A stretch of DNA of 37,902 nt, from assembly GCA_019661895.1 (NCBI GenBank), contig JAIFWO010000003.1:1-37902 (forward strand), read 5' to 3'. Positions within the stretch are counted from its first letter, which is position 1. Every line of letters starts with the position of its first letter. Source of the DNA: Candidatus Parcubacteria bacterium. GTDB lineage: Bacteria > Patescibacteriota > Minisyncoccia > Phycocordibacterales > Zambryskibacteraceae. This document shows, piece after piece, positions 5,873-23,088 of this stretch. A program made the translations under genes and the position numbers. The notes under the pieces are model-generated. The model ran no database searches, was not told where the DNA came from, and worked only from the letters and a program-made list of their open reading frames with translations.

Positions 5873-5949
5873 TGTTATTGAATTACTAAGTAATCTATAT
5901 ATTGTAACTCAACCATGGATTTTGAATAGAGGTGTTATACTACTCCCGC

Positions 5950-7386
5950 ATGAATGCGCTCAGAGACAAAGTTTTTGCCATAGTTGACGTCGAGACCACC
6001 GGTTCGAGCCCGACGGGCGATCGAATCATCGAAATCGGCATTTTGCGCGTTCTAAATGGCAAGGTCGTGCAGACCTTCGAAACTCTCATTGATCCAGAGC
6101 GATACGTGCCGCCCACCATCGAGAGTATTACCGGGATCAAGGCGTCCGACCTCGAGGGCGCTCCCACCTTTGCCGACATCCGCGCCCAAGTCGCCCAGTT
6201 GCTTGAAGGTGCGGTATTCGTCGCTCATAATGCCCGCTTCGATTATGGATTCATTAAAAATGAGTTCAAGAGAGAGGGCGTCAGCTGGAGCGCCAAGTGC
6301 CTCTGCACCGTGCGTCTCTCAAGGAAGTTGTATAGCCGAGAGAAGAGGCATGACCTTTCTTCGATCATAGAGCGCTTCGGTTTTGAATGTCCGCGCCGGC
6401 ACAGAGCCTTCGACGATGCGCGAGTGCTTTTCGACTTCCTCAATCACATAGAGAGAAGCGGGCGCGAGGAGGAGCTCAAGGAAGCGGTCAAGGCTCTTCT
6501 CCAAGAGAATACTTTGCCCCAATTCTTGGATGAGAAGAGCATTCGAGCCTTGCCAGAAGGTCCGGGGGTATACACCTTCTTAGGACCTGAGGGAGAGGTT
6601 CTCTATGTAGGTAAAAGCCTAAACATCCGCCATCGAGTGCTCTCGCACTTTTCAAATGATCACAGCACGACCAAAGAGATGCACTTATGCCAAGAGACTA
6701 GGAGAGTGGAAGCCGAGGAAACTGCTGGAGAATTGTCCGCTCTTCTTCTCGAGTCCGAACTTATCAAAGCCTTATCTCCTTTGTACAATCGCCAGCTGCG
6801 CCGTCGCTCAGAGCTTGTGGTAGTCAAGGGGTTTAAAAAAGATGGCTATATGAACGCTAAGATCGAGAGGCTCCGAGAGGTCAGTCCCGAAGAATACAAA
6901 GAGATCTTGGCAATATTTAGGAACGTCAGACAAGCCAAGGAATTCCTTTCCGCCTCCGCGTACGAGCACGGCCTCTGCTCGAAGCTGCTTGGGATCGAGA
7001 AGGCCAATGGCGCATGCTTCGCGCATCAGATAGGAAAGTGCAGCGGAGCTTGCCTTGGCAAAGGGGAGCCCAAGGACTACAACCAGAGGGTCAAGGAAGT
7101 CTTTAAGAAGAGGAAGCTCCGGGCGTGGCCCTTCGCCGGCGCTATTAGGATCGAGGAGAGGAGAGATGATGACGAGAGTCATGTCTTCATCCTTGATAAT
7201 TGGTGCTTGCTCAAAGACGCTAAGATAAGCATGTATGACACGGAAGTGCGCTCGCACCCGGGCCGCTTCGACTACGATGCTTATAAGATATTTATGCGCT
7301 ATATCAAAAATCCTCTGAACAAAAAGCGCATCAAGCACTTGAGCCAAGAGGAGGAAAGAGTTGTGGAAATGGATTCGTCTTTATAG
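5950..7386 (+). CDS. Fusion: DnaQ-like DEDD 3'-5' exonuclease plus GIY-YIG (UvrC/Cho-like) nuclease
   Basis: FAIVDVETTGSSPTGDRIIEIG ... HNARFDYGF ... HRAFDDA (DEDDh); then GPGVYTFLGPEGEVLYVGKSLNIRHRVLSHF (GIY-YIG). Confidence 0.9.
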   Translation: MNALRDKVFAIVDVETTGSSPTGDRIIEIGILRVLNGKVVQTFETLIDPERYVPPTIESITGIKASDLEGAPTFADIRAQVAQLLEGAVFVAHNARFDYGFIKNEFKREGVSWSAKCLCTVRLSRKLYSREKRHDLSSIIERFGFECPRRHRAFDDARVLFDFLNHIERSGREEELKEAVKALLQENTLPQFLDEKSIRALPEGPGVYTFLGPEGEVLYVGKSLNIRHRVLSHFSNDHSTTKEMHLCQETRRVEAEETAGELSALLLESELIKALSPLYNRQLRRRSELVVVKGFKKDGYMNAKIERLREVSPEEYKEILAIFRNVRQAKEFLSASAYEHGLCSKLLGIEKANGACFAHQIGKCSGACLGKGEPKDYNQRVKEVFKKRKLRAWPFAGAIRIEERRDDDESHVFILDNWCLLKDAKISMYDTEVRSHPGRFDYDAYKIFMRYIKNPLNKKRIKHLSQEEERVVEMDSSL

Positions 7387-14522: not shown

Positions 14523-16595
14523 ATGTCAATATTTAAGATTAACAACGAGTTTAAGCCGGCGGGGGATCAGCCTAAGGCTATCCAAGGTCTCACTGAAGGG
14601 GTCGAGAAGGGCGAGCGGTATCAAACCCTTCTTGGTGTGACTGGCTCGGGCAAGACCTTCACCGCGGCCAACGTCATTGCCAATATTGGTAAGCCGACAC
14701 TTGTCATTGCCCACAACAAGACCCTGGCGGCCCAGCTCGCTCAGGAGTATCGCGAATTCTTCCCGGAGAATGCGGTGCACTACTTCGTCTCCTATTACGA
14801 CTTCTACCAGCCGGAGGCTTACCTGCCTGTGACGGATACTTACATCGAGAAGGAGGCCATGATCAACGAAGAGATAGATCGCTTGCGTCACGCCTCCACT
14901 CAATCCTTATTGACTCGTCGTGATGTTATCGTGGTGGCTTCCGTCTCGTGCATTTACGGCTTAGGCAGTCCTGAGGAATATGAGAAGGTCAATATGAAGA
15001 TCGAGAAGGGGGCAAATATATCGCGTGCCGACTTCATCCGCGAGCTCATTCGCATCCACTTCACTCGCACCAACGCCGACGTCAACCCAGGCCAATTTCG
15101 AGCTCTTGGCAGCGCGGTGGAGATCATGCCGACTTCGGAGCGCAATATCTTCCGCATAGAAATCGAAGAGGGCACGATCTCGAAGATCTCGCGCATCGAT
15201 GGTGTGACGCGCTCTATCATTTCCGAGCCAGAGGTCTTCTTCCTCTTCCCGGCCAAGCACTTCATTACGGCCGAGGATCAACTCGAGCGAGCCTTTAATA
15301 GTATTAAATCAGAGCTCACAGATCAGTTGGAGTTATTTAAAAAAGAAGGGAAGATCTTAGAAGCCGACCGCTTGAAGCGACGCACCTCATACGACTTGGC
15401 TCTCATCCGCGAGGTGGGCTACTGCAATGGGATCGAGAATTATTCCCGCCACTTCTCTGGCAAGAAACCGGGTGAGGCACCAGACACTCTGCTCTCATAC
15501 TTCCCGCACAAGGCCGATGGTTCGCCCGACTTCTTGACCATTATCGACGAGTCGCACGTGACCATTCCGCAAATTGGCGGCATGTATGCCGGAGACAAAT
15601 CTCGTAAGGACACCCTCATTGAACACGGCTTCCGTCTGCCTTCCGCGCGCGACAATAGGCCTTTGAAGTTTGAAGAATTCGAGAAGAATGTGGGCCAAGT
15701 GATCTTCACCTCCGCTACCCCAAGCAAATTCGAGAAGGAGCACAGTACCAAAGTAGTCGAGCAAGTTATCCGCCCCACAGGACTTATCGACCCGGAGGTC
15801 TTAGTGCGGCCAATACAAGTAGGGCAGACCCGCCTGCCAGCGCCTGATGCCGCAGGCTATGGCGGGCAGGTCTTCGACTTCATTAAGGAAGCCGAGGCGG
15901 TCATCAAGAAAGGTGGTCGAGCCATTGCCACCACTCTTACCAAGAAGATGGCGGAGGATCTCTCAGAATATTTGAAGGAGAAGAAGATCAAGGCTAGCTA
16001 TCTGCATAGCGACATCAAGACCATCGAGCGCATTGAGATCTTGACCGCTTTCCGTCGCGGGGAGTTCGATGTGCTTGTCGGAGTGAATCTCCTACGAGAA
16101 GGTTTGGACTTGCCGGAAGTGATGTTTATCGGCATCTTAGACGCAGACAAAGAGGGCTTCTTGCGCTCTGAGACCTCGCTTATCCAAATCATTGGCCGTG
16201 CCGCGCGCAATGTGGAGGGGAGAGTGATCCTATACGCCGACACGGTAACGGGCTCAATGGAGAGAGCGATTGGAGAAACCAACCGCCGCCGGGGCATCCA
16301 GGTCGCCTACAACACCAAGCACGGCATTACTCCGAAGACGATCATCAAGAAAATCAAAGACATTACAGACACGCTGGATCGCGAGCACCACCAGGCTGTC
16401 GACACGCTTCTTGAGACCGACGCCAAACTCTTCGAGAAGAATCCCAAGAAGCTTATCAAAGCCAAGATGAATGAGATGGAGGAAGCGGTCAAGGTCCTCG
16501 ACTTCGAGAGCGCCGCCATCTTACGCGATGAACTCAAAGTTCTCGAAAGCAGATTAGAAAAGTCCGAAAAATCAAAAAAGAAAAAAGCCGCCTAA
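14523..16595 (+). CDS. uvrB: UvrABC system protein B
   Basis: LLGVTGSGKTFTAANVI, YYDFYQPEAYLP, VIDESHVTIPQIG-like IIDESHVTIPQIGGM, GVNLLREGLDLPEV, IQIIGRAARN, C-terminal UVR motif. Confidence 0.98.
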   Translation: MSIFKINNEFKPAGDQPKAIQGLTEGVEKGERYQTLLGVTGSGKTFTAANVIANIGKPTLVIAHNKTLAAQLAQEYREFFPENAVHYFVSYYDFYQPEAYLPVTDTYIEKEAMINEEIDRLRHASTQSLLTRRDVIVVASVSCIYGLGSPEEYEKVNMKIEKGANISRADFIRELIRIHFTRTNADVNPGQFRALGSAVEIMPTSERNIFRIEIEEGTISKISRIDGVTRSIISEPEVFFLFPAKHFITAEDQLERAFNSIKSELTDQLELFKKEGKILEADRLKRRTSYDLALIREVGYCNGIENYSRHFSGKKPGEAPDTLLSYFPHKADGSPDFLTIIDESHVTIPQIGGMYAGDKSRKDTLIEHGFRLPSARDNRPLKFEEFEKNVGQVIFTSATPSKFEKEHSTKVVEQVIRPTGLIDPEVLVRPIQVGQTRLPAPDAAGYGGQVFDFIKEAEAVIKKGGRAIATTLTKKMAEDLSEYLKEKKIKASYLHSDIKTIERIEILTAFRRGEFDVLVGVNLLREGLDLPEVMFIGILDADKEGFLRSETSLIQIIGRAARNVEGRVILYADTVTGSMERAIGETNRRRGIQVAYNTKHGITPKTIIKKIKDITDTLDREHHQAVDTLLETDAKLFEKNPKKLIKAKMNEMEEAVKVLDFESAAILRDELKVLESRLEKSEKSKKKKAA
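15828..15871. repeat. GC-rich palindromic element, copy A (in-frame inside uvrB)
   Basis: ACCCGCCTGCCAGCGCCTGATGCCGCAGGCTATGGCGGGCAGGT; reverse complement aligns to copy B; encodes TRLPAPDAAGYGGQ. Confidence 0.8.
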
Positions 16596-20255: not shown

Positions 20256-21521
20256 ATGAATAGTCAACCTGCCCGCCATCGCAACGCTCAGGCGTTAGCA
20301 GGCGGGGACCTACAACAACTCGATCTGCCTGATAGCCCCGGAGTGTATTACTTCCTGGGGCCGAAGAAGGAGATATTATACGTGGGCAAGGCCACCTCTC
20401 TTCGTGATAGGGTGAAAAGTTATTTTGCCAAAGACCTTTTAACCGCTCGCGGCCCGCTCCTTGTGAAGATGATAGATGAAGCTGTGTCACTAGATTGGAT
20501 GACCACCGACTCGGTGCTCGAAGCGCTCATCTTCGAGGCCAATCAAATTAAGAAGCACAAGCCTCCTTACAATACCGCTGAGAAGGATAATAAAAGCTTC
20601 AACATGGTCGTGGTAACGGACGAAGATTTCCCACAAATCTTCGTCATGCGCTCACGCAGCGTAGCTCACTGGAATTCGATCTCCAAAGGTTTGAAGCTTT
20701 CTGCCGCCTACGGCCCCTTCCCACATAGTGGAGAATTGCGCGAGGCTTTGAAGATCATTCGCAGGATCTTCCCGTACAGGGACAATAAATGCAAACTCAC
20801 AGGCAAACCCTGCTTCAACGCTCAGATCGGCCTTTGTCCGGGAGTGTGCGCTGGCTGGATGGGCAAGCGCGAGTATAGGAAGCAGGTCAAGCGCATCAAG
20901 CTCTTCTTCGAAGCCAAGAAGACAGAACTCGTTAAAGATCTTGAGAAGGAGATGCATTCGTGTGCCAAGGAAAGGAAGTTTGAAGAGGCCGAGAAGTTCA
21001 AGCGCATGCTCTATGCTCTTGAGCACATCCAGGACATTGCTCTCATCAAGCACGACATGGAGCGCTCCGAGAGTGGAGAATTCCGCATCGAGGCCTATGA
21101 CATCGCTCATCTATCAGGCAAGGAGGCCGTGGGAGTCATGACCGTAGTTGAGGATGGCGAACTTGTCAAAAACCAATACAGAAAATTTAAAATTAAAATC
21201 GATAAAAATGATGACGTTCGTAATTTGCGCGAGGTCTTGGAACGCCGCTTCAACCACCCAGAGTGGAAGTGGCCGCAACTTATTGTCGTCGACGGCGGGG
21301 TGGCTCAGATCAACGCCGCGCAGGAAGTTTTGAAAGAAAAGGGATTCAATATCGATGTCGTCTCAGTGGTAAAGGATAACCATCATAAAGCCAAGGGAGT
21401 AGTTGGCAGTAAGCAGTATGTAGAAAGGTGGGGCAAGTCAATTTTACTCGCTAATTTCGAAGCTCACCGCTTCGCCATTACTTATCACCGCAAACTGCGC
21501 GGCAAAGGCTTCAGGATATAG
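20256..21521 (+). CDS. uvrC: UvrABC system protein C, lacking C-terminal HhH region
   Basis: SPGVYYFLGPKKEILYVGKATSLRDRVKSYF (GIY-YIG); UVR motif region; RNase H-like IEAYDIAHLSGKEAVGVMTV and IVVDGGVAQINAA. Confidence 0.93.
   Translation: MNSQPARHRNAQALAGGDLQQLDLPDSPGVYYFLGPKKEILYVGKATSLRDRVKSYFAKDLLTARGPLLVKMIDEAVSLDWMTTDSVLEALIFEANQIKKHKPPYNTAEKDNKSFNMVVVTDEDFPQIFVMRSRSVAHWNSISKGLKLSAAYGPFPHSGELREALKIIRRIFPYRDNKCKLTGKPCFNAQIGLCPGVCAGWMGKREYRKQVKRIKLFFEAKKTELVKDLEKEMHSCAKERKFEEAEKFKRMLYALEHIQDIALIKHDMERSESGEFRIEAYDIAHLSGKEAVGVMTVVEDGELVKNQYRKFKIKIDKNDDVRNLREVLERRFNHPEWKWPQLIVVDGGVAQINAAQEVLKEKGFNIDVVSVVKDNHHKAKGVVGSKQYVERWGKSILLANFEAHRFAITYHRKLRGKGFRI
20268..20308. repeat. GC-rich palindromic element, copy B (in-frame at N-terminus of uvrC)
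   Basis: CCTGCCCGCCATCGCAACGCTCAGGCGTTAGCAGGCGGGGA; encodes PARHRNAQALAGG directly after MNSQ. Confidence 0.85.
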
Positions 21522-22418: not shown

Positions 22419-23045
22419 ATGCAGCAAATAGGTCAAGGTTATTACTACACGGTATACGATCTTCTAAATGGCCGGGTTTTGAAGCGGGTCACAGGCCATC
22501 GCCACAGACTTAAAAAGTTACTCGCTTGGTATGGCAAAACTCGGTCAGCTAGGCTGCGAATCATTGCGTTTTATCCGCGCCAGATCCTAAAGGACCGCCG
22601 TTCGCTCCGGCTCTCAGCCAAAACTTACGAAATTAACCCGGAGATCTTCGGCAATCCTAAATTCCTCAATCAGCTTGAATACGAGCAAGATAAGGCTATA
22701 ACTCTTGAGGATTATTTTGAAAGTCACACCTTCGAGGAGAATAAATTAGCTTTCAACGATTATCCGAATTTAGTAAAAATCCTTTGGGTACATGGTCTCT
22801 CAGACACTGTATTCAACTTCACCAGGAATACGGGTATCTCACTACAGACAAATAAGCTCCTCTATATCGACTTCAATGAATTTAGCCAGAAAAAGGATAA
22901 AGTGCGCAGATGCATTGAAACTAAAAAGTGGCGGACACAGAAATCTCTGCGAGATATGCAGGAAGGGGAGTTGAAGGATTATATTATCAAAAGGATCGAA
23001 GCCGAATTGACTCTAGAGAAACTCGAAGAACTCTGGCCAAAATAA
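22419..23045 (+). CDS. Hypothetical protein, possible kinase-like fold
   Basis: GQGYYYTVYDLLNGRVLKRV glycine-loop-like start, later HGLSDTVFNFTRN and LLYIDFNEF; abuts the Ddl-like gene. Confidence 0.5.
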   Translation: MQQIGQGYYYTVYDLLNGRVLKRVTGHRHRLKKLLAWYGKTRSARLRIIAFYPRQILKDRRSLRLSAKTYEINPEIFGNPKFLNQLEYEQDKAITLEDYFESHTFEENKLAFNDYPNLVKILWVHGLSDTVFNFTRNTGISLQTNKLLYIDFNEFSQKKDKVRRCIETKKWRTQKSLRDMQEGELKDYIIKRIEAELTLEKLEELWPK

Positions 23046-23047
23046 AA

Positions 23048-23088
23048 GCCCGCCCGCTAACGCCTAAGCGTAGCAATGGCGGGCGGGC
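23048..23088. repeat. GC-rich palindromic element, copy C (intergenic, terminator-like)
   Basis: GCCCGCCCGCTAACGCCTAAGCGTAGCAATGGCGGGCGGGC; reverse complement matches copy B (CCCGCCATnGCnACGCTnAGGCGTTAGCnGGCGGG). Confidence 0.88.

Follow-up and report, generated by a model that had tools for sequence, protein, structure and literature searches.

Why does the uvrC gene of a Parcubacterium open with a palindrome in its reading frame, and where did this palindrome come from? The window considered here is a stretch of 37,902 nt from a Candidatus Parcubacteria genome (contig JAIFWO010000003.1). In it, uvrC (20256-21521, + strand) encodes a 421-aa protein with GIY-YIG, UVR, and RNase H domains (Pfam). 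The gene starts with ATG AAT AGT CAA (20256-20267), which is followed by CCTGCCCGCCATCGCAACGCTCAGGCGTTAGCAGGCGGG (20268-20306, + strand; 39 nt) and then by GAC CTA, the arrangement that an earlier note on this DNA had described. In the uvrC frame, the 39 nt encode 13 residues, PARHRNAQALAGG, placed between MNSQ and DLQQLDLPDSPGVYYF of UvrC. The palindrome is imperfect: its arms, CCTGCCCGCC and GCAGGCGGG, pair with a T.G wobble and a CxA mismatch. Even when three mismatches are allowed, a 41-mer at this site has a single occurrence in the window (expected number, 0).

An Exact Insertion in uvrC

The earlier note proposed comparing uvrC 5′ ends in sister genomes for presence or absence of the palindrome, and this comparison gives a direct answer: the relatives have exact empty sites. 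In G002 and G007 the gene starts with ATGACTAGTCAAGACCTACAG and ATGAATAGTCAAGACCTACTA, respectively, that is, ATGAxTAGTCAA|GACCTA; the present genome (G000) reads ATGAATAGTCAA-[39 nt]-GACCTACAA, identical there except for exactly 39 additional nt. At the protein level, MxSQ is joined straight to DLQ in UvrC of the relatives, and the element peptide is absent from all 29 relatives fetched for this comparison. The empty sites also fix the ends of the inserted unit and reveal no target duplication at uvrC. Thus, uvrC of this lineage has received a copy of a dispersed palindromic element, exactly at the junction of codons 4 and 5. That the feature as a whole represents an inserted, dispersed, and translated element is very probable; how such an element moves is far less certain.

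Other Copies in the Same Genome

The 621-kb genome (33 contigs) contains seven copies of the element, five of which lie in frame in uvrC, uvrB, dnaK, grpE, and dinB. Besides the uvrC copy, two are found in the window. The 690-aa uvrB product (14523-16595, + strand) hosts a 42-nt copy (15829-15870, - strand) that has the same arms as the uvrC copy and a different loop; its + strand reads RLPAPDAAGYGGQ. A 39-nt copy with perfect arms, CCCGCCCGCC and GCGGGCGGG, is intergenic (23049-23087, - strand) and lies 3 nt past the stop codon of an ORF at 22419-23045; the earlier note had overlooked this one. Elsewhere, copies are present in dnaK (C7:2777-2806), grpE (C7:4758-4783), a dinB-like polymerase gene (C14:3900-3925), and outside any long ORF (C23:22165-22203); the last one (L294) is flanked by two near-copies of a different repeat, AAAGCTTTCGCTCACTTCGCTTGGTA. 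Yet another repeat pair, CCCGCGCAGGCGGGATGTTTGTG or similar, occurs near apparent tRNA ends at L038 and L046 (G000:C6 and C31).

The uvrB copy does lie in the opposite orientation and a different reading phase from the uvrC copy, as had been noticed at first sight; the accompanying idea that both strands of the element are open holds only in part, since the uvrC copy has stops in three of its six reading frames. In the dnaK and grpE/dinB copies, none of the six frames contains a stop.

All five in-frame insertions are missing from relatives. Compared to these, grpE is longer by 27 nt and dnaK by 30 nt; dinB has gained an exact 26-nt insertion plus approximately 4 nt just upstream, 30 nt in total, so that the frame is kept, and this cleanly resolved site shows no target duplication. 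In uvrB the net gain is 27 nt, with the loop rearranged. The same uvrB site is occupied by a 45-nt element in G220, a member of another family of the order, in which the protein reads YGGQ-TRLPAPEAGLG-YGGQ and the insertion adjoins host sequence that resembles the end of the element itself. The suggestion that this is a mobile repeat tolerated by proteins is therefore well supported by the exact empty sites, the five in-frame insertions in this genome, and many more in the order.

A Patchy Family in Patescibacteria

How widespread is the element? The arm pair of the uvrC type (TC/AG; pattern CCTGCCCGCCN{2,30}GCAGGCGGG) is present in 51 of 397 genomes of the order, mostly drafts, with a patchy distribution, and a control search with the reversed pattern found none; together with the seven copies in 621 kb, these counts argue that the element is not a product of chance. 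Within the genus, the TC/AG form is confined to the present genome, and the CC/GG form occurs as a single copy in G005 and in G007. This perfect form is present in 11 of 64 genomes searched; perfect variants of this sort (CC/GG, TT/AA) are in the minority. Two perfect palindromes composed of the same letters were considered as the true arm form and rejected, having 0 and 3 matches in the 51 carriers. The copy number can be high: G111 contains 16 exact copies.

Among named genomes, 41 stretches match the 39-nt form, the majority from several lineages of Patescibacteria (Taylor-, Vogel-, Davies-, Gottesman-, Levy-, Roizman-, Curtiss-, Portnoy-, Doudna-, and Berkelbacteria); a few matches are in metagenome-assembled genomes labeled Deltaproteobacteria, Desulfobacteraceae, and Actinomycetota, labels that are given as deposited. 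Carriage by phages was rejected, as no viral contig with the 39-nt form was found.

Across the family, units of 21-48 nt combine constant arms with a variable loop, which is often self-complementary. The T.G wobble and the CxA mismatch are kept in nearly every stem. In the 39-nt class the inner stem covaries, with 11 double-changed cells vs. 3.9 in shuffles, more than in any slid register. Two pairing registers are open to the arms, and in one of them (CCCGCC/GGCGGG) a 5′ CCTG stays unpaired. The element ends in CCTG and CGGG; 91% of copies are preceded by a purine (A or G at position -1), and the flanks contain no conserved tetranucleotide. Direct repeats of at least 7 nt flank more copies than expected (11 vs. 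approximately 0.3 when shuffled); a target-site duplication was nevertheless rejected, as these repeats are at least in part pre-existing tandem 7-mer targets and none is present at clean sites. Six loci (L150, L243, L205, L240, L141, and L139) have elements in or beside tandem 7-nt repeats (such as GAATATG and GAAATTA) that mimic 7-nt flanking direct repeats.

Comparison With Known Palindromic Repeats

We found no paper on such repeats in Patescibacteria/CPR among the open-access papers searched. In-frame coding insertions of mitochondrial GC clusters are present in yeast var1. Like the present element, mitochondrial GC clusters and repetitive hairpin-forming elements are short hairpins scattered in a small genome with an unsettled mechanism of spread (PMC2800124); however, they belong to an organelle and have other sequences.

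Among bacterial repeats, the closest in kind are intragenic REPs and Rickettsia palindromic elements (RPEs). REPs are short palindromes with a consensus and multiple copies per genome, a description that fits the seven copies here and the 16 exact copies in G111, but they seldom overlap protein-coding regions (PMC12306157), whereas 78 of 128 copies of the present family, and five of the seven in this genome, are inside ORFs (of at least 150 aa in the case of the 78). The GTAG and CGTC palindromes are likewise short, dispersed, imperfect, and sometimes intragenic; many of their intragenic copies are in excision repair genes, a bias that was remarked upon, and more broadly in uvr, polA, recombination, and tRNA-related genes, and recB is occupied at nearly the same site in two species (Di Nocera, 2013; PMC3733652). 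The present element differs in that it has no terminal GTAG or CGTC tag, is mostly found inside genes, varies in length by steps of three, and resides in Patescibacteria, which are not among the hosts listed in that study (PMC3733652). RPEs are palindromes inserted in frame into many unrelated genes of a small-genome bacterium and apparently tolerated as an extra peptide (PMC10969869); in-frame insertion into unrelated genes is what is seen here too. Yet RPEs are approximately 150 bp long and encode a conserved peptide (PMC10969869), vs. 21-48 nt, six frames, and another sequence in the present case. The clean uvrC and dinB sites lack the target-site duplication that marks a MITE. The palindrome family is apparently undescribed, of the same kind as an intragenic REP or an RPE, without the GTAG/CGTC tags of the former and shorter than the RPEs reviewed.

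How Might the Element Move?

No dedicated or autonomous transposase was found linked to the element. The family could spread as a non-autonomous selfish repeat, either as a hairpin-forming single strand or by capture at breaks; insertion would be blunt, preferentially after a purine, and carried out by an enzyme supplied in trans, with a Y1/RAYT-type transposase and a GIY-YIG nuclease as candidates.

A possible, still tentative, route is that of REP-type repeats: a Y1 (RAYT) HUH transposase would act on a single-strand hairpin whose CCTG tag stays unpaired in one register, and would leave no target duplication. The blunt insertions and the CCCGCC/GGCGGG pairing, which can free the 5′ CCTG, are consistent with such a mechanism, as is a weak excess of Y1_Tnp in carriers (36 of 40 vs. 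26 of 40 non-carriers, p = 0.014, a difference confounded by relatedness); G000 has the most Y1_Tnp matches in its genus (three). However, a GTAG tag is lacking and the copies are mostly intragenic; most non-carriers also have Y1_Tnp; it was not found in carriers G014, G016, G220, and G403 (G220, with six copies of the element, is 71% complete); and eight Y1_Tnp loci inspected for flanking arms had none, yielding just one unrelated partial arm match.

Capture at DNA breaks, such as those that small tRNA-associated GIY-YIG nucleases might make, followed by copying in through template switching at micro-homology, appears more doubtful. What points to it is a recurrent neighborhood, in which a 78-79-aa GIY-YIG ORF is followed by an intact tRNA and immediately preceded by the 5′ half of a tRNA, a partial copy. 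Four copies of the element occupy the D-arm of such a half or adjoin what is left of it (the tRNA is tRNA-Thr in G039, G241, and G005 and tRNA-Lys in G220; L123, L194/L302, L312/L276, L314). The fetched DNA (approximately 580 kb) yielded five unique free-standing GIY-YIG ORFs, of which four lie 18-29 nt from an element, with a Poisson probability of about 5e-7 at a rough expectation of 0.06 and 0.002 at 0.5, figures that come from loci chosen for their elements. The uvrB insertions of G000 and G220, both adjoining host sequence like the end of the element, would also fit template switching. On the other hand, only approximately four of more than 128 copies adjoin such ORFs, and insertion points in the tRNA half are spread over approximately 12 nt. 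The GIY-YIG/tRNA association remains a lead. The tRNA sequences that hold the element are partial copies; interruption of genuine tRNA genes was rejected, as removal of the element yields no complete tRNA. In G039, two further loci (L121 and L197) have a partial 5′ tRNA copy (Phe and Ile) with the element in its D-arm, directly before an intact tRNA and without a nuclease ORF.

A bolder reading, and a rather unlikely one, would make the spread of the whole Patescibacteria-wide palindrome family dependent on tRNA-embedded GIY-YIG nuclease genes: the tRNA 5′ half, whose D-arm holds the palindrome, the 78-79-aa ORF, and the intact tRNA would form the autonomous unit, and the bare palindromes in uvrC, uvrB, dnaK, and other genes would be its non-autonomous offspring.

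Host Genes and Reading Frame

Whatever moves it, the inserted element has to be compatible with its host genes. The length is divisible by 3 in 109 of 128 copies: in 73 of the 78 inside long ORFs, and also in 36 of the 50 outside them. Because copies are not independent, this excess is in part due to inherited unit lengths. All six reading frames are used across the family.

The 56 hosts identified (55 by Pfam and grpE by its relatives) are mostly housekeeping genes. They comprise uvrA (two), uvrB (two), uvrC (two), uvrD, recJ (two), polA, dinB, and topA, to which genes for an exonuclease III-like and an HhH-GPD protein may be added. Further hosts are tsaD (four), dus (three), aminoacyl-tRNA synthetases, translation-factor GTPases, and secA (two); the remaining named hosts include the MraW methylase gene (two), dnaK, trigger factor, thyA, alr, murD-like, gapdh, and others. 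In G039 an element (L196:733-774) is inside the tmRNA gene, ssrA (L196:556-993), in a variable pseudoknot region. Thus, reduced Patescibacteria genomes carry a patchy, dispersed hairpin element that becomes part of core proteins and of tmRNA, and short in-frame inserts are to be expected in genome annotation and protein alignments in these lineages.

Are repair genes special? The earlier note took the presence of the element in uvrB and uvrC, two partners of one repair complex, as a hint of a mobile, protein-tolerated repeat. Both genes do carry it, but a special link to Uvr partners does not follow, as the family is also in dnaK/grpE, dinB, tsaD, and secA; still, uvrA/B/C are over-represented, making up six of the 56 hosts vs. 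approximately 0.6 expected by length (P 3e-5), or four of 51 without this genome (P 0.002). One could imagine that inserts are kept for altering DNA-repair proteins, a mutator-like advantage of the kind speculated about for REPs in uvr and rec genes, and the uvrA/B/C excess speaks in its favor, as does the comparable bias reported for unrelated REPs (PMC3733652). This is an unlikely explanation: unrelated housekeeping genes are common among the hosts, the two modeled insertion sites are a tail (UvrC) and a loop (UvrB), numbers are small, and the finding was itself selected for uvr genes. The element forms a third, differently ended palindrome family beside the two also found in uvr and other repair genes, and a long-standing question, why inserts of this sort accumulate in repair genes, can now be tested by comparison.

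A Probable, Tolerated N-Terminal Tail

Under the favored interpretation, an inserted and translated element, the uvrC copy would be transcribed and translated as a disordered N-terminal tail of 13 residues. What probably makes this tail tolerable is that the insert length is divisible by three, that the frame used has no stop, and that the site lies outside the folded GIY-YIG domain; frame-keeping insertions in loops and tails would survive. AlphaFold models agree: UvrC residues 1-16 have pLDDT < 50 and the GIY-YIG core that follows mostly 70-93, and UvrB residues 433-446 form a loop between a strand and a helix with pLDDT < 50, in a modest model (mean pLDDT 66.8).

It is highly improbable that uvrC translation begins downstream and that the element is 5′ UTR, even though in other bacteria a REP at an annotated N-terminus is frequently not translated (PMC3733652): the ATG and xSQ 5′ of the element (MNSQ here, 20256-20267, + strand; MxSQ in relatives) are conserved at exactly the same place in relatives, which supports the upstream ATG as the start; past the element, no in-frame ATG, GTG, or TTG is met before the GIY-YIG motif, which itself contains a GTG; and four more in-frame copies are gene-internal. 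Of the two ways in which the earlier note could have failed, neither applies: a downstream start is opposed by these observations, and a peptide that is ordinary UvrC sequence by its absence from the 29 relatives. Its idea that a hairpin just behind the start codon affects translation gains no support from folding, as ViennaRNA finds the uvrC start codon about equally unpaired with and without the element. Elsewhere in the window (5932-7386), a 484-aa protein with RNase T exonuclease and GIY-YIG domains is a second UvrC-like nuclease of this genome.
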